Source: Gammaproteobacteria bacterium (GTDB taxonomy: Bacteria > Pseudomonadota > Gammaproteobacteria > Chromatiales > Chromatiaceae). Taken from it: 42,721 nt of DNA. Below the pieces are notes generated by a model. It was given only the letters and a program-made list of their open reading frames with translations. It ran no database searches and was not told where the DNA came from. Position numbers and translations under genes: made by a program. The DNA lies in contig WFXD01000036.1 of the NCBI GenBank assembly GCA_015490795.1, positions 1-42,721 on the forward strand, written 5' to 3'. Positions 9,815-20,938 of this stretch are shown in pieces; positions within the stretch are counted from its first letter, which is position 1, and every line of letters starts with the position of its first letter.

Positions 9815-9848
9815 CAGCTGCTTCAGCTTATCCCTGAAATTAGCTGTT

Positions 9849-9911
9849 TATGCCCGCAATTTGGGTATTTATGCCCGTAATCTGGGTATTCATGCCCGCA
9901 ATCTGGGTATT
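9849..9911 (+). repeat. Family 3 element: three 21 bp tandem units
   Basis: Three units of TATGCCCGCAATTTGGGTAT plus one base (starts 9849, 9870, 9891) stand directly behind pal. The left flank AGCTTATCCCTGAAAT resembles the terminal repeat of the better-preserved copy at 16999-17109, which has the same units in the opposite orientation. No matching right end is seen here. It separates pal from cpoB without a coding role. Confidence 0.85.
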
Positions 9912-9949
9912 TCAGCAAATTGCATTAAGCGCAAAAGGGTCTTTAGAAG

Positions 9950-14269: not shown

Positions 14270-15475
14270 TCATGGGGTTTTATTCAGTGGCGGCTGTGCA
14301 GGCCGCCTTAACGCATCGGTAGTGCGTGATTCATCCATGCTGAGTTTACCCGTTGTCTTTTTGTGGCACCTGAGACAGTCGGCAAAGGTGAATGAGACCT
14401 TTCCGTGGCAGCTCCCGCAATAGAACCCTTTTGACATATCGGTCATCTTCATCTTGTTGGCGCCAAGCTCATCCTTGAAAACAGCGGGATGGCAGGTTGC
14501 GCACTGAATCCAGTCGGAATGGATCTTATGGTCGAAGATGACATCACTGACAAAACCGCTTTGTGAGGCAAAAAGTATTCTGTTATCGCGGATCTCTTCC
14601 GTATGATTTTTGTCCAGTGATGCCACGGGCGTGAACACATCGTTCTCTTTCAGCTTCATCCAGTCGATAAATCGAAAACGATCCAAAGGGAGCCTGCCAT
14701 CGGGAAGATTTTCCGGACGCCACTGGGCGCCTATCTTCTCTGCCATCTCTTTAATGGCGGTCTGCTTGACCTTCTCCGGGTGGTGCAGATGTTCAGCGTT
14801 GGGTGAGCCGGCAATGTGGCAGCGGTTACAGTCAGATTTCTCATGCATTGCAAAGGCTGCCGTCCCATTGTGGCAGGTGCCACACAGCGCTCCCTTCTCC
14901 ATACTCTGGTGAGAGAGGTTGCCCTCCCAGCGCTTCATTTTGAATATATCGTTATGGCAGACCTTGCATTCATACAGGATGCGGTGCAGCCAGTGGGGGT
15001 AAAGCACCATAGAGAGGTTTTGCCGCACCATCTCATCTTCATGCTGTTTCATGACAAAGTTGCCAAGAAAGCGCTCCTCCTTCTTCCATTTCATTATTTC
15101 AGCAGTGCGTTTTTGCTCTTTCAACAGCTCTTTTTGAATGAGCGGAGCAACCAGTTTAATGAGGCTGTCATCCTGATGCCAGTGCAGGTACATATAGGCA
15201 ATGGCACTGGCAATGTTGAGCTGTCGCATACGATCTTCAAAGGCCTGTTTGTCACTCATGGCCTCTTTAACGAGATCCGCCACCGCACCGGGAATAATGG
15301 GCTTGTTGAGCCGCACAAGATCCAGCTGATCATTGAATTGTTGCTCTTCATAGTTGTATGTGAACTGTTGAAGAAAGGTTGCATTGTCCATGGCGCCTGA
15401 GCTGCCAGGCAGGGAGAAGAGCAGTACAAAGAGCCATATAAGCCGGCAGTTGATCTTGTAAACACATGAAATCAT
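14270..15475 (-). CDS. Hexaheme cytochrome with two c7-type triheme modules
   Basis: A 401-residue exported protein with an N-terminal hydrophobic signal (about 11-28) and a helical region (about 30-155) without haem. Six CXXCH sites follow in two sets of three: residues 170, 198, 216 and 325, 353, 367. The first set opens YPHWLHRILYECKVCH and resembles the whole protein at 15702. The second opens FDHKIHSDWIQCATCH, is preceded by a FIDWM segment, and resembles the proteins at 16101 and 17208. The gene therefore looks like a fusion of the two kinds of module found separately next door. The modules fit the c(7)-type triheme domain (TIGR04257-like). It is divergently transcribed from 15702, sharing a 226 bp promoter region. 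It is probably periplasmic or surface-exposed. Confidence 0.85.
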   Translation of the reverse strand: MISCVYKINCRLIWLFVLLFSLPGSSGAMDNATFLQQFTYNYEEQQFNDQLDLVRLNKPIIPGAVADLVKEAMSDKQAFEDRMRQLNIASAIAYMYLHWHQDDSLIKLVAPLIQKELLKEQKRTAEIMKWKKEERFLGNFVMKQHEDEMVRQNLSMVLYPHWLHRILYECKVCHNDIFKMKRWEGNLSHQSMEKGALCGTCHNGTAAFAMHEKSDCNRCHIAGSPNAEHLHHPEKVKQTAIKEMAEKIGAQWRPENLPDGRLPLDRFRFIDWMKLKENDVFTPVASLDKNHTEEIRDNRILFASQSGFVSDVIFDHKIHSDWIQCATCHPAVFKDELGANKMKMTDMSKGFYCGSCHGKVSFTFADCLRCHKKTTGKLSMDESRTTDALRRPAQPPLNKTP

Positions 15476-15615
15476 AACTAATTATCTTTTATGGCATTAA
15501 AGGTGCGATGTTGTGAGATGCCCGCTTAGTATAGTGCATTTGATGAGAGCGGAGCAGCCAGCGATGCCAGCTAGACAGCAAAATAGTTGACGCAGCAACC
15601 ATGCCGTGGTAAATA

Positions 15616-15629
15616 TTGACTTAAGTCAA
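15616..15629. promoter_or_regulatory. FNR/CRP-family operator candidate
   Basis: A perfect 14 bp palindrome TTGACTTAAGTCAA lies in the divergent spacer, 141 bp before the hexaheme gene start and 73 bp before the triheme gene start. Half-sites TTGAC/GTCAA separated by four bases fit the FNR/DNR/CRP superfamily pattern (FNR itself prefers TTGAT-N4-ATCAA). It would suit control by oxygen, nitric oxide or redox state. The regulator itself is not in the window. Confidence 0.55.
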
Positions 15630-15701
15630 AAAGCACAATGCGGTCCGGCCTATAGGGCAGAGTCCTATTCTGCTATTCTCAACTTGAGGCAAGGCACAAT
15701 A

Positions 15702-16088
15702 ATGAGGCAGATAATGATGACCCGTAAAACTCTATTAGCGACACTGCTGGTTATGGCGTTTGTTTTGGGAGGAGCGTCTACAGCTGTAGCCAGAGAATAT
15801 GCTGATATCTACATGGACTCTACCCGCAGCAGTATGGAAAAAGCGGATGTGAAGGCCGTCATCTTTCCCCACTGGTTTCACCGCATCAGATTCAAATGCA
15901 AAGTCTGCCATGAAAACATCTTTATCATGAAACGGGGGGCGAACAGTGTTTCCATGCGCCGCATTATGGAGGGCGAAGCCTGTGGTGTATGCCATAACGG
16001 GCAGATTGCATGGGAAGCGCTCTACTGTGAGCGCTGCCACACGGCAGAGTTTGAGCCAAAACAGACTGCTGATGCAGCAAAACAGTAG
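15702..16088 (+). CDS. Triheme c7-type cytochrome (single module)
   Basis: A 128-residue exported protein. The start is placed at ATG 15702 (further ATGs at 15714 and 15717), which gives a clean signal peptide ending STAVA. The mature part is one triheme module: FPHWFHRIRFKCKVCH (haem site at residue 66), CGVCH (94) and CERCH (109). The leading FPHxxH probably supplies a distal histidine ligand. It is the separate counterpart of the first module of the divergent hexaheme protein. It is followed after 12 bp by the lipoprotein gene, so the two form an operon. Confidence 0.87.
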   Translation: MRQIMMTRKTLLATLLVMAFVLGGASTAVAREYADIYMDSTRSSMEKADVKAVIFPHWFHRIRFKCKVCHENIFIMKRGANSVSMRRIMEGEACGVCHNGQIAWEALYCERCHTAEFEPKQTADAAKQ

Positions 16089-16100
16089 AAGGGAGGCCTT

Positions 16101-16976
16101 ATGAAAACGCCAGTCTCTGTCCCTAATGGTCTTGCATTGGCGGCCATATTACTGCCATTGCTGGTTCTAACTGGCTGTAAACAGGCAGATACCCATGCAT
16201 TACTGCAGAAACCTGATAAAAAGGCCATCGTGCCAGAGGCACCCGCCAACAAACCTGCTGTAGATGAAAAGGGAAAAAGCCTCGCCTCAGCAGCAACGCC
16301 AAAGCCCGCGCCAGCGCTAATTGCCCCTGCTGAAGCCGTAACCAAACAGCAGAAAAAAACGGCTGACCCTGTAAAAGGGATTAATGCGCTTCCAGCAACG
16401 GCAGCGGGCGCCAAGACCATGACGGAGAGTGCAGCTAAAAAGCCGGCACCACTCCCGAAATTTGGGCCGGATGACCCAAGAAGTGCAATCTACTTGAGTA
16501 TTACCGGAAAGATGGCAAGAATGGGCGACCCGTCAGGCACCGCATCAGACGCCTACAAGTATGGGAGAGGAAAACACCCGGAAGCACTGGCTGGAGTGGG
16601 GCTTCCAAAAGACAAGTTTGGCCTGATTGACTGGATGGCAATTGTTAATGAGGGGATCATAAAGCCGCGCGGCTCCATAAAGCCAGGCGCACCAGAACTG
16701 CCCCCTTTTGATATGGATGTGCTTATTACAGCCAAGGGTGATTTTGTAAATGATGTCATGTTCCCCCATAAGGCCCATAGCTATTGGCTAAAGTGCGAAA
16801 ATTGCCATACGGGCATATTCATTATGGCCAAAGGCCAGAACAAGATGACCATGCAGGGGATTGTTGAGGGAAAATGGTGTGGGCGCTGCCACGGAAAGGT
16901 TGCCTTTCCCTTGACAGATTGCAACCGCTGCCACCAAACACCAAAGCAAACAGTAGAAGTAACGGCGAAAAAATAG
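16101..16976 (+). CDS. Triheme c7-type cytochrome lipoprotein
   Basis: A 291-residue lipoprotein. The signal ends in the lipobox VLTGC (C26). Then comes a long Ala/Pro/Lys-rich tether (about 30-120), a segment with GLIDWMAIVNEGIIKPRG (174-191), and one triheme module with CENCH (232), CGRCH (260) and CNRCH (274). FPHKAH before the first haem probably gives a distal ligand. Membrane anchoring plus a long flexible tether suggests it reaches across the periplasm or shuttles electrons at the outer membrane. The module is close to that of the gene at 17208 (shared EGKWCG.CHGKVAFP). Confidence 0.87.
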   Translation: MKTPVSVPNGLALAAILLPLLVLTGCKQADTHALLQKPDKKAIVPEAPANKPAVDEKGKSLASAATPKPAPALIAPAEAVTKQQKKTADPVKGINALPATAAGAKTMTESAAKKPAPLPKFGPDDPRSAIYLSITGKMARMGDPSGTASDAYKYGRGKHPEALAGVGLPKDKFGLIDWMAIVNEGIIKPRGSIKPGAPELPPFDMDVLITAKGDFVNDVMFPHKAHSYWLKCENCHTGIFIMAKGQNKMTMQGIVEGKWCGRCHGKVAFPLTDCNRCHQTPKQTVEVTAKK

Positions 16977-16998
16977 TTACACTATAAGCAATTATTCA

Positions 16999-17109
16999 GC
17001 TCACCCCTAAAACTCATCAGCTCAAGGTGCAAAGCGCGGGCATAAATACCCAAAATGCGGGCATAAATACCCAAAACGCGGGCATAAATAGCCTGTTTTA
17101 GGGGTGAGC
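16999..17109 (-). repeat. Family 3 element with 15 bp inverted ends
   Basis: The ends GCTCACCCCTAAAAC (16999-17013) and its complement (17095-17109) enclose three 21 bp units beginning GCGGGCATAAATACCC at 17036, 17057 and 17078. The same units occur after pal at 9849 in the opposite orientation. Here the element separates two triheme cytochrome genes. It has no open frame and no spacers of different sequence, so it is not a CRISPR array. Confidence 0.85.
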
Positions 17110-17207
17110 AGAACAGTTACAGCGTTGAGCTAAAAAGTTAGATCTGTATAGAGGTGTTTTGCAAGTGCCCCTATAAACAATATTAACTTGCTGGAGTACC
17201 AGGTTGT

Positions 17208-17843
17208 ATGAAACATGTCTGTTCTCCACTTAAGATGCTGGTGTGGCTGCTGCTGGCCTGCGGCCAGGCATCCAGTGCTTTGGCAGAAGATGAATCCTTA
17301 CGCAAGTGCAAGGTGATTTTGGATTCATCCTGCAATATCTCGCAGGAAGAGATGTTAAAAGAGCTGCTCCAGGATATGGAATTCTTTGGCACTTTTGAAA
17401 AAATTGGCGGATCAGATGAACATCCGGTTCCCGCTTTTGAAATATTGCCAAAAGATCAACTTGGGATGATCAACTGGAACAAGGCAGTAACCGACGGCAC
17501 CATCCGTCCCAGAGGGACGCTGAACGACGAGGAGGAAGAGCCCCCCTATGAAGGTTTCCTTGACAATATTATCTTCTTCCAGGCCAAGGTTTATATGATG
17601 GCCGATGTGGCCTTTCCCCATGGAATTCACACCTATTGGTTAAGTTGCGACAGCTGCCACCCCGAACCCTTTAAAAAGCAGATCGGAGGAAATGCATTCA
17701 CCATGCAGGAGATCTTTGAGGGAAAGTGGTGTGGAAAATGCCATGGTAAAGTGGCTTTTCCAGCGAGTGGCTATGCAAATTGCAGGCGCTGCCATGTCCT
17801 CACCAAGAGTGATATTCTGGGCGTTGGGCATGATGAGAACTGA
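17208..17843 (+). CDS. Triheme c7-type cytochrome
   Basis: A 211-residue exported protein with signal peptide ending SALA (about residue 26). Two extra cysteines (C34, C42) may form a disulfide. The central segment QLGMINWNKAVTDGTIRPRG parallels the lipoprotein at 16101. Three haem sites follow: CDSCH (147), CGKCH (175) and CRRCH (192), preceded by FPHGIH. The start ATG lies eight bases after GGAG. A leader of 98 bp after the family 3 element suggests its own promoter. It is convergent with the minus-strand cytochrome b operon. Confidence 0.87.
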   Translation: MKHVCSPLKMLVWLLLACGQASSALAEDESLRKCKVILDSSCNISQEEMLKELLQDMEFFGTFEKIGGSDEHPVPAFEILPKDQLGMINWNKAVTDGTIRPRGTLNDEEEEPPYEGFLDNIIFFQAKVYMMADVAFPHGIHTYWLSCDSCHPEPFKKQIGGNAFTMQEIFEGKWCGKCHGKVAFPASGYANCRRCHVLTKSDILGVGHDEN

Positions 17844-17890
17844 TCCTGAAAGCAGCAGGGACATCAGCATTTCCCAATAGAGTGGTTAAA

Positions 17891-17991
17891 CCTGGAAAAA
17901 TCAGTTGAGCCTGCCCGGCAACTGCTCCTGCGTTGCTCTACCACCTGTATCCCTATAGACGCTCTCGCTACGGCCCAACTGATTTTTCAGG
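17891..17991 (+). repeat. Family 2 palindromic element, short copy
   Basis: The ends CCTGGAAAAATCAGTTGAGC and GGCCCAACTGATTTTTCAGG form a near-perfect inverted repeat around a ~60 bp centre. The longer relative at 22837-23013 shares the ends and the inner CGCTCTCGCTACGG-like motif but has a different centre. Placed between convergent genes, its strong stem followed by a T run on both strands could also act as a bidirectional terminator. Confidence 0.8.
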
Positions 17992-17999
17992 CTGCCTCC

Positions 18000-18959
18000 C
18001 TAATGTGCACTATGGTCATGCCCACCCGTCTCTTCTTTGGCTGGGTTGGGGGTGTCAGGATTCCACCCATCGCCGGGAAGAAGGAATTTAGGCATATAGA
18101 ACTCCTGGTATTTGGCAACCATGCCCGCCACCTCGGTTCCCACCAGATCCTGCTTGCGACGTTTGGGATAACCCAGGCTGTCAAAGGGCAGGTAAGGGGT
18201 TTTGTCATTATGGCAGCCGTCGCACATCAGCGGGTTTTCATCAATTCGTCTATGGATCACCTTCTTCATCTTTGACTGCTGGGTAGAGCCCAGGCGATCC
18301 TTCTCTTGCAGGTATTTCTCGACAAAGGCCCGCTCTTTTGCATCATTCAGAAACAGGAATTGGCCGCTGCTGCTGATTCTGCCCGGTGCAATCTTTGCAC
18401 CGTAGTTGCCATACATGGATTTGTCCAGCGAGGTCAGCCCCGGTGGGTTGCTGATGAGATCACCTGTTTTTTTATCATACCAGCGAAAGGCCCAGCTCCC
18501 GCCCTCTGTCTTGGGCTGGATATGGCAGGTTTCGCAAGCCAGGTAGAAGGCATGCATATTGAGAAAAGCGCGAATAGCCTTGGCCTTATCGTGGGGGATT
18601 GCACCGTGGCAGCGAATGCAGAGGCTGGTGTCATCAGGCTCGACCGTCATGCCCACATGGTGAAAGTGACCCTGCACATACTCCTCTTCCACCACCATGT
18701 AACCCAGGTTGGTGGTTGCTGTGCTGGTCTGCTCCTTCAATGCAGAGGCAAACTGCTCCTCCTGCATGTCTGCTTCATTCAATAGCGCTGCAATCTCTGC
18801 CTCTGCGCTGGCGTCGGCGGATGCAGCTACATCTACATCGTGATCGGCTCCGCCATGGCCCCATATGACGGGATATAGAAAAAACCCGTACCATACCGTG
18901 AAGCACATAAGAAATATGATATAGACCTTATTAATGATCGTTTTAATGAGGTGTAGCAT
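18000..18959 (-). CDS. Membrane-anchored triheme cytochrome c, third gene of the cytochrome b operon
   Basis: A 319-residue protein with one N-terminal membrane helix (about 8-33) that may stay uncleaved, then an Ala/Asp/Glu-rich stretch and a periplasmic domain with three haem sites: CIRCH (114), CETCH (142) and CDGCH (246). The C-terminus is histidine-rich (GGHDHSAH). It does not contain the c7-type module of the plus-strand genes. It is 18 bp downstream of the cytochrome b gene. It is likely a periplasmic subunit that accepts electrons from the cytochrome b/octaheme pair. Confidence 0.8.
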   Translation of the reverse strand: MLHLIKTIINKVYIIFLMCFTVWYGFFLYPVIWGHGGADHDVDVAASADASAEAEIAALLNEADMQEEQFASALKEQTSTATTNLGYMVVEEEYVQGHFHHVGMTVEPDDTSLCIRCHGAIPHDKAKAIRAFLNMHAFYLACETCHIQPKTEGGSWAFRWYDKKTGDLISNPPGLTSLDKSMYGNYGAKIAPGRISSSGQFLFLNDAKERAFVEKYLQEKDRLGSTQQSKMKKVIHRRIDENPLMCDGCHNDKTPYLPFDSLGYPKRRKQDLVGTEVAGMVAKYQEFYMPKFLLPGDGWNPDTPNPAKEETGGHDHSAH

Positions 18960-18977
18960 TCGTCTCTCCCGGCCTTA

Positions 18978-19784
18978 TCAATGGTGGCCCTGGGGCTTTA
19001 TTTCGTGTGCGAGGCCATGTTCGGTCATGGTTTCCACATACTCTGCGTAGTGCTCGTGGATCATGTCTGCTTCAGAGAGGTATCCGGTGAGAAATACGGT
19101 GCCTAAAGGGAACTTCTCAGGCGCATAGTGCACGTTGTACCAGTGGACGAAGAACAGGAACAACCCTGCCAACAGCGCCTCATCTGTATGCATGATGTAC
19201 AGGGCGTTCAACAGCCATCCAGGGAAGACCTGGGTAAATTCATCACGGAACCACAGTGCCAGACCGGCTGGGCCAAGGATGGGGATGCCCCAGTAGGGTG
19301 CGAAGTAGTCGAACTTCTCTTTCCAGCAGATACGATCATACTTTGGTGGATTTGGTGAGAGATAGAGCAGGTACTTGAACATCTGCACAATATCCCGGCC
19401 ATCCTTTCCATTGGGCATCATCTCCATAGAGAGGAATGCCTTGAAAAAAGTGACAGGCCCCAGGGTTTTCTCTTTAATCAGTGGCTTGAGCCTGTTTCTG
19501 TAAAACAGATACATCCAGTAGCCAGTGTGAAAGAGGAAAAGACAGAGCAGTACCAGACCGGCAGCACGATGGATCTGTGGCGCTATCTCAATGCCACCCA
19601 TGAAGGTAAAGAGCGGCTCTGCCCATGGTTCATTGTAATAGCGCTGCGGGAACCCGGTAAGCCCGAGGGTGATAACACATGAAAAGAGGATAACGTGCTG
19701 TACGCGCTGCATCAGAGAGAACCGGAAGAAGTAGCGCTTGCCGTTGCGATAATTTATTTTTGGGTATCTGTCTGACATGATCAT
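18978..19784 (-). CDS. Diheme cytochrome b, quinone-reactive membrane subunit
   Basis: A 268-residue inner-membrane protein with about four helices (30-47, 72-96, 165-180, 198-221). Histidines H30, H72, H86, H199 and H214 lie in or at the ends of helices, as in FdnI- and HydC-like di-haem cytochromes b that exchange electrons with quinones. The cytoplasmic loop between helices 2 and 3 is long. The start overlaps the octaheme stop in an ATGA, so translation is coupled. In Geobacter CbcL an octa- or nonaheme domain is fused to such a cytochrome b; here the two are separate adjacent genes. Confidence 0.82.
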   Translation of the reverse strand: MIMSDRYPKINYRNGKRYFFRFSLMQRVQHVILFSCVITLGLTGFPQRYYNEPWAEPLFTFMGGIEIAPQIHRAAGLVLLCLFLFHTGYWMYLFYRNRLKPLIKEKTLGPVTFFKAFLSMEMMPNGKDGRDIVQMFKYLLYLSPNPPKYDRICWKEKFDYFAPYWGIPILGPAGLALWFRDEFTQVFPGWLLNALYIMHTDEALLAGLFLFFVHWYNVHYAPEKFPLGTVFLTGYLSEADMIHEHYAEYVETMTEHGLAHEIKPQGHH

Positions 19785-20938
19785 ACACCTTTCTCAGCGC
19801 TGGAGTTTTGCAGCACTGATGTAGCATCGGTTGGTTTTTCCTTGATGAAACTAAAGTTGGGAAACAGGCGCCTCAGCAGCTCAAGAAAAATAATAATGAC
19901 GAAGAAGTAGAGCACCGCGGCCATCAGCCCTTGAAAAAACTTGAGCATGTAGTACTGCATGGGGTACTTCTCAGCATTACTATAGTCAGTATGCACTTGG
20001 TATGAAGCAATCCCTTCACCTGCGTTGACGTGACACTCTTCATTTCGACAGGTGGCTGCAATGTTGTTTTTATAGGTTGATGCGGTTGGCTCAGTGTGGC
20101 TTTCAATGGAGTGGACGCTCTCGCCATAGACAACATGACAGTCCAGGCAATCGGCCGTCTCATCAGAGCCGAAGGTTACCGCCTTGCCATGAAAGGTCTC
20201 TTTGTACGATGTGACCACATCATCCAGCTCATGTCGTTCCCGGAATGCAGGGTCGGCATGGCATTTGGCACAGACCTCGACAATCTCCCGTGATTCGCGG
20301 GTCTTCTGTAGACGGGATGTCACATGGCTGTAAAAATCCTCTGCAAAATCGCCTGTCTGGTGGCAGGTCTTGCAGCGACTCAGCCCACGGCGGGATATGC
20401 CGGCAGACTTGCCTTTGAAGAAGGAGAGGGGGCGATAAAGCGGTTGCTCATGGCAATCCTTACAGCCAGGGTAATCCTCCTGGTGATCCTTGAGGTTGCC
20501 CTCTTTATCGTATCTGCTGTGTACGCTGGCATCCAGGATCTCTTTCACAGGCGCGTGAGTGAAATTCTGTTTGCCCGAAGGCTCGGTCAGGTGGCACTCA
20601 ACGGTGCAGTCCACCTTCTCGGCAGGATCATGCGGGATCTTTTTGATGTCCCGATGGCAGTCCATGCACATGATGCGCTTGTGCGGCCCCTTCATAAACA
20701 GGTTTTCGTTGATGTAGAAGAGTCTGAAGCGACCATTCTCGTCAATCCTGCTCAGGCCGCGGAATTTGTGGCACAGCACACAGTTCAGTTCATCTTCAGC
20801 TTGAGCAGGAGGCGTCCATGCCAGACCACCAAGCATGACGATGACTAACAATGCGGCCAGCAATGCCGCAAAAGTCTCGGTAAGCCGTTGAGCGGTGCCA
20901 TGAAGCATCTTGTTTGGTAATACACCCATTATTCTCAC
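19781..20938 (-). CDS. Octaheme cytochrome c with C-terminal membrane anchor
   Basis: A 385-residue protein with an N-terminal signal or anchor (about 24-47) and a C-terminal membrane helix (about 332-356). Eight haem sites are seen: CVLCH 53, CMDCH 91, CTVECH 111 (CX3CH), CKDCH 159, CKTCH 189, CAKCH 223, CLDCH 264 and CRNEECH 297 (CX4CH). The layout fits the periplasmic subunit of a quinol:cytochrome c oxidoreductase. It is the first gene of a three-gene operon with the cytochrome b and triheme subunits. AGGTGAGAAT lies just before the start. The non-standard haem sites may need a dedicated lyase, which is not in the window. Confidence 0.85.
   Translation of the reverse strand: MRIMGVLPNKMLHGTAQRLTETFAALLAALLVIVMLGGLAWTPPAQAEDELNCVLCHKFRGLSRIDENGRFRLFYINENLFMKGPHKRIMCMDCHRDIKKIPHDPAEKVDCTVECHLTEPSGKQNFTHAPVKEILDASVHSRYDKEGNLKDHQEDYPGCKDCHEQPLYRPLSFFKGKSAGISRRGLSRCKTCHQTGDFAEDFYSHVTSRLQKTRESREIVEVCAKCHADPAFRERHELDDVVTSYKETFHGKAVTFGSDETADCLDCHVVYGESVHSIESHTEPTASTYKNNIAATCRNEECHVNAGEGIASYQVHTDYSNAEKYPMQYYMLKFFQGLMAAVLYFFVIIIFLELLRRLFPNFSFIKEKPTDATSVLQNSSAEKGV

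Follow-up and report, generated by a model that had tools for sequence, protein, structure and literature searches.

Seven cytochrome genes of a Chromatiaceae bacterium form two separable modules, one of them a predicted quinone oxidoreductase

The seven adjacent cytochrome genes at positions 14270–20938 of the window (the whole analysed stretch of 42,721 nucleotides, contig WFXD01000036.1 of GenBank assembly GCA_015490795.1) were found to comprise two modules, a three-gene set G-F-E and a four-gene set A-D. The G-F-E set very probably encodes a quinone:multihaem cytochrome c oxidoreductase, as judged by homology, and its use in extracellular electron transfer is likely. In the preferred reading, with a probability of about 0.6, G-F-E would be the inner-membrane quinone oxidoreductase, and A-D would be periplasmic c7 relays feeding a separate outer-membrane conduit.

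Composition of the seven-gene block

The seven open reading frames, the 26 covalent haem motifs, and the single cytochrome b of the original prediction were all confirmed. The genes are listed below with their window positions, strand, and the main basis of assignment.

14270–15475, minus strand: A, secreted hexahaem cytochrome with two c7-type trihaem domains (TIGR04257, PDB 3ov0)
15702–16088, plus strand: B, small secreted trihaem c7 protein (TIGR04257, homologue in a Uet-like cluster)
16101–16976, plus strand: C, lipoprotein with a long spacer and a C-terminal trihaem c7 domain (lipobox LTGC, TIGR04257)
17208–17843, plus strand: D, secreted trihaem c7 protein (TIGR04257, paralogue on contig C12)
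18000–18959, minus strand: E, membrane-anchored periplasmic trihaem cytochrome, third subunit (hydrophobic anchor, conserved haem sites)
18978–19784, minus strand: F, dihaem cytochrome b of the FdnI type, predicted quinone-site subunit (PF01292, 1kqf_C)
19781–20938, minus strand: G, octahaem cytochrome c with a C-terminal membrane anchor (8 conserved haem motifs, hydropathy)

The haem motifs are distributed as 6 in A, 3 each in B, C, D, and E, and 8 in G, comprising 24 CXXCH, one CX3CH, and one CX4CH. The real count was far above chance, composition-preserving shuffled controls (n = 2000) having yielded a mean of 0.09 CXXCH and a maximum of 2. For B, the start at 15702 is the more likely one. 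The reading frames of F and G are joined by an ATGA overlap, so G-F-E is one candidate operon; the block contains at least three transcription units (A, minus; B-C-D, plus; G-F-E, minus). Between C and D, three tandem copies of a 21-bp repeat (window 16990–17118) lie within a 24-nt inverted repeat (88%), and the reverse complement of the 21-bp unit occurs in about three copies downstream of pal (window 9832–9912). A genome-wide search allowing up to 2 mismatches placed the repeat unit in these two regions exclusively. Near the contig start, the window also encodes a secreted 260-aa cytochrome with a doubled CXXCH domain (1400–2182).

The TIGR04257 search established c7 trihaem domains in A, B, C, and D, as had been proposed from the sequence. 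All four scored above the curated cut-off (>40 bits), with 124.7 bits for A (two stretches), 69.8 for B, 67.3 for C, and 59.5 for D, and all exceeded the PF14522 cut-off as well. Protein A matched PDB 3ov0, a dodecahaem c7 protein that we take to be GSU1996, with an E-value of 3.5e-38. The description of C as a lipoprotein with a long tether also held, since the LTGC lipobox is followed by a spacer of about 190 residues. The 2.76 Mb genome contains 28 matches to the c7 family; a paralogue of D (46% over 196 aa) lies on contig C12. Hexahaem c7 paralogues (of A, B, and C) on contig C5 (L009, 3–10446) adjoin a gene set for a TAT molybdoenzyme, an FeS protein, NrfD, a NapC/NirT-type pentahaem cytochrome, and a monohaem cytochrome. 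The best match of this Phs/Psr-like molybdoenzyme was the thiosulfate reductase PhsA, below the cut-off. This neighbourhood indicates that the partner of a c7 relay is not in every case a conduit to the cell surface.

Protein F was identified as an FdnI-type cytochrome b by its PF01292 score (34.8 vs. the Pfam cut-off of 30.1 bits), its fold, and its four haem-ligand histidines. A PDB search with F as a single sequence gave nothing useful; the family profile of F retrieved 1kqf_C (FdnI) with an E-value of 4.1e-13, and the predicted structure of F (pLDDT 88.2) matched the same chain with a Z-score of 15.6 over 207 residues. Five histidines of F (28, 70, 84, 197, and 212) are invariant in the family alignment (A2). 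FdnI residues H18, H57, H155, and H169, which we take to be its four haem ligands, align with H28, H70, H197, and H212 of F. In formate dehydrogenase-N, FdnI is the cytochrome b556 that reduces menaquinone. Because of this family membership, F may be expected to exchange electrons with quinone.

Protein G carries six CXXCH motifs together with CTVECH (CX3CH) and CRNEECH (CX4CH). Selection acts on the haem sites of both proteins: each of the eight sites of G (97 sequences) and each of the three of E (99 sequences) is kept in no fewer than 98% of the aligned rows, with nine further conserved histidines in G and four in E. The additional histidines would be enough for bis-His ligation throughout. 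An open catalytic haem in G or E is not indicated by the conservation pattern, which seems to favour electron transfer over catalysis. Hydropathy analysis showed N- and C-terminal hydrophobic segments in G (near 16–45 and 330–360) and an N-terminal hydrophobic anchor in E. No real match to G was obtained in the PDB, and none of the curated family models fits G or E. E is fused to F in two loci (L135 and L136), and G and F each match one-chain fusions of nine c haems and a b domain in relatives, which indicates that G, F, and E form one complex. These matches, together with the fold and ligands of F, support the original view, which saw in G-F-E a quinol:cytochrome c oxidoreductase built to a split CbcL plan.

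Gene order and genomic context

To compare gene order, 80 named loci were collected by means of F. The G-F-E set was contiguous in 75 of them, from Gammaproteobacteria, Nitrosomonadales, Desulfobacterota, Nitrospirota, and Verrucomicrobiota; the other five are the two F-E fusions, loci at contig ends, and L142. A-D adjoined G-F-E in only 3/80 loci, each in the genus of the window. Within this genus (six genomes), all seven genes occur together in the window, G002, G003, and G005. In G001 and G004, G-F-E stands beside LepB, and A-B-C-D follows PepN on another contig. The A-D set is intact in all six genus members, and B-C-D is kept together in G017, from another genus, where it is located next to LepB and G-F-E is absent. 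A single conserved seven-gene unit was thus rejected, A-D and G-F-E being linked within the window's genus only; the notion of one seven-gene chain found no support, and the tol-pal genes nearby were judged incidental. LepB-type signal-peptidase-like genes recur directly upstream of G (L041, L042, L043; L078–L080, L082), two of them in tandem upstream of G-F-E in G001, G004, and G005.

A connection of G-F-E with extracellular electron transfer, as proposed, is supported by its neighbours in other genomes. In 62 of the 80 loci, the available stretch contains at least one of three associated gene types, namely NHL proteins, second cytochrome b sets, and cytochromes with at least 14 haems; these loci include 37/38 outside Gammaproteobacteria and Nitrosomonadales and 25/37 of the gammaproteobacterial and Nitrosomonadales loci outside the window's genus. 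The remaining 12 of these 37 had none of the three, some of the available stretches being short. The typical order in Nitrospirota and Desulfobacterota is G-F-E-NHL followed by a cytochrome of 18 to 20 haems, and in several Gammaproteobacteria the neighbouring genes are G2-F2-E2, a second set, and an 18- to 24-haem cytochrome gene. Undecahaem and NHL genes are also present in L091, L099, L104, and L106, and the last three loci encode a barrel-like protein of 683–717 aa without transmembrane helices. The model of the L104 barrel, built from a five-row alignment, was all-beta and of low confidence (pLDDT 55.7); it matched outer-membrane barrels in general, including MtrB (6r2q_B), with low TM-scores. 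The window type of F was detected in 8 of 369 sampled genomes of the class, and a second free-standing F type in seven of those eight (Fisher p = 1.6e-12, uncorrected for phylogeny).

The window genome itself contains candidate conduit genes on two other contigs. Contig C90 encodes a 24-haem cytochrome, an NHL protein, E2, F2, G2, an octahaem cytochrome, a PQQ propeller, a barrel candidate, a tetrahaem cytochrome, and a second NHL protein; the barrel candidate (598 aa) carries a signal peptide, lacks transmembrane helices, and shows a barrel-like sequence pattern. An undecahaem-like gene, an NHL gene, and a pentahaem gene are located at the end of contig C104. Since their G002 counterparts, namely cytochrome, NHL, pentahaem, and 24-haem genes, are consecutive on one contig, C104 and C90 probably adjoin. 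No match to the MtrB/PioB porin (PF11854), the marker of an MtrCAB conduit, was detected in the whole genome. The earlier remark that no MtrCAB-type porin accompanies the block was therefore literally correct, but the porin-free route drawn from it was not supported, since a barrel candidate from a different family is encoded in a multihaem cluster together with a second G-F-E set. Among other large cytochromes of this genome are two giants of 1962 aa with at least 14 haems (L013, 1706–7594) and 1593 aa with 15 haems (L014, 1990–6771). A third protein, of 1225 aa with 28 haems (L010, 5685–9362), stands with an octahaem cytochrome, an NHL protein, and a PQQ-propeller protein.

RuBisCO, marking the sole CO2-fixation route looked for, was not found in the genome, and neither SoxB nor DsrA was detected there above the cut-off, so a sulfur-oxidation link through either was discarded. 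One region (G000:C119:20445-20837, L174), part of an 822-aa frame, matched DsrA with 57 bits (E-value 1e-15), far below the cut-off; the frame possibly encodes another sulfite/nitrite reductase-like protein.

Proposed role and alternatives

In the preferred reading, the two b haems of F would span the inner membrane and exchange electrons with the quinone pool, and E (trihaem, N-terminal anchor) and G (octahaem, C-terminal anchor) would carry electrons into the periplasm. The c7 proteins A-D, with C lipid-anchored, would then act as periplasmic relays bridging G-F-E to a trans-outer-membrane conduit. This conduit would most likely be the C90/C104 cluster with its undecahaem and 24-haem cytochromes, NHL and PQQ propellers, barrel candidate, and second G-F-E set. 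The partner proteins and the delivery to the surface are presumptive. This reading is favoured by the homologues of B and C that sit within a barrel/NHL/undecahaem cluster (L181) of G012, from another genus of the same family. There, the homologues of C (43% over 115 aa, E-value 6e-22) and B (34% over 111 aa, E-value 7e-21) are flanked by a tetrahaem gene on one side and a 681-aa barrel-like gene on the other, with NHL and undecahaem genes coming next. Against it, A-D and G-F-E are unlinked outside the genus, the window module is not adjacent to the conduit, c7 paralogues on C5 adjoin a molybdoenzyme, 12 of the 37 loci mentioned above lack all three associated gene types, and the barrel assignment rests on a sequence pattern and on the low-confidence model of a different barrel (L104).

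The same complex might run inward, with an extracellular donor (Fe(II), a mineral, or another cell) passing electrons through the conduit to reduce quinone. This direction was considered rather unlikely, even though Uet, the closest published cluster, was described in cathode-oxidising Tenderiales (PMC10734462, PMC12575090) and CbcL/MtoC homologues occur in Fe reducers and Fe oxidisers alike (PMC6295460). Also in its favour, the genome has haem-copper oxidase genes and several molybdoenzymes, one of them NarG-sized. With RuBisCO absent and neither SoxB nor DsrA above the cut-off, however, lithotrophy of the Calvin-cycle or Sox/rDsr type is not indicated, and outward flow (quinol oxidation) is therefore mildly preferred. 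It is less probable still that G-F-E and the c7 proteins form a periplasmic hub feeding soluble reductases, such as a Phs/Psr-like molybdoenzyme, and not the cell surface. The C5 arrangement of c7 paralogues beside a molybdoenzyme set speaks for such a hub; that set, however, comes with NrfD and NapC-type quinone partners of its own, and the recurrent neighbours of G-F-E are multihaem, NHL, and barrel-like genes, although, with part of the neighbours annotated, a rarer reductase could have been missed. A role of A-D mainly as an electron-storage pool (capacitor), placed beside G-F-E by chance, appears very improbable. The separability of A-D from G-F-E and the many c7 paralogues in the genome agree with it, but A-D is preserved across the genus, as B-C-D is in G017, C has a lipid anchor, and genes resembling C and B lie inside the conduit-like cluster of G012.

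A broader proposal, which is tentative, is that G-F-E, the NHL propeller, and the 18- to 24-haem partner may constitute an unnamed trans-envelope system shared across phyla, with up to three paralogous quinone-facing forms per genome, of which the window form would stand away from the conduit and would have gained a c7 relay cassette. If the assignments are right, the three-gene quinone oxidoreductase would provide sequence markers by which extracellular electron exchange could be recognised in marine bacteria resembling Sedimenticola and in Desulfobacterota and Nitrospirota lineages, where the usual conduit markers, MtrB among them, can be absent. The connection between the quinone pool and very large multihaem cytochromes would also become testable in these lineages.

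Comparison with known systems

Protein F shares its fold and four haem-ligand histidines with FdnI (1kqf_C); it differs in having multihaem cytochromes c as partners and no formate dehydrogenase subunits nearby. Tandem c7 trihaem domains, as in A, also build the dodecahaem wire GSU1996 (PDB 3ov0, 3oue, 3ouq); A has two such domains vs. four and, in addition, some 140 residues at its N terminus. Another c7-type dodecahaem protein is CbcC (OmcQ). The CbcBA and Cbc5 (cbcEDCBA) systems of Geobacter are quinone oxidoreductases of cytochrome b and multihaem cytochrome c clustered with further c cytochromes (PMC7726332, PMC11434368, PMC10553843), and the window block resembles them in gene content.

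CbcL of Geobacter sulfurreducens combines a periplasmic multihaem c part and a membrane dihaem b part (PMC9129911). CbcL/MtoC-type fusions of 660–730 aa carry nine haems and then a b domain homologous to F; G matches their haem part, and F matches their b part with an E-value of about 1e-40, all falling in one tree. These fusions, from the same family and genus, were likened to CbcL by architecture. Unlike CbcL, the window encodes the c part (G, eight haems) and the b part (F) as separate genes and adds a third, trihaem subunit (E); a single polypeptide with nine c haems and a b domain is thus replaced by three genes. A name for this three-gene set was not found in the literature searched, in which journal coverage was partial.

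The Uet cluster of Candidatus Tenderia and Gallionella comprises, as reported, trihaem UetDEG, the barrel UetC, NHL proteins UetHI, undecahaem UetJ, and tetrahaem UetA (PMC10734462). Compared with that description, the L181 cluster of G012 holds much of the Uet gene content, and its trihaem genes are the homologues of C and B. Of Uet-type genes, the window has the trihaem ones only, whereas undecahaem-like, NHL, tetrahaem, and barrel-candidate genes, likened to Uet by content, are found elsewhere in its genome on C104 and C90; the Uet descriptions consulted name no G-F-E set. G-F-E varies the CbcL/Cbc type of complex, its genes being split and a third subunit added, and it is locally joined with Uet-like relays.
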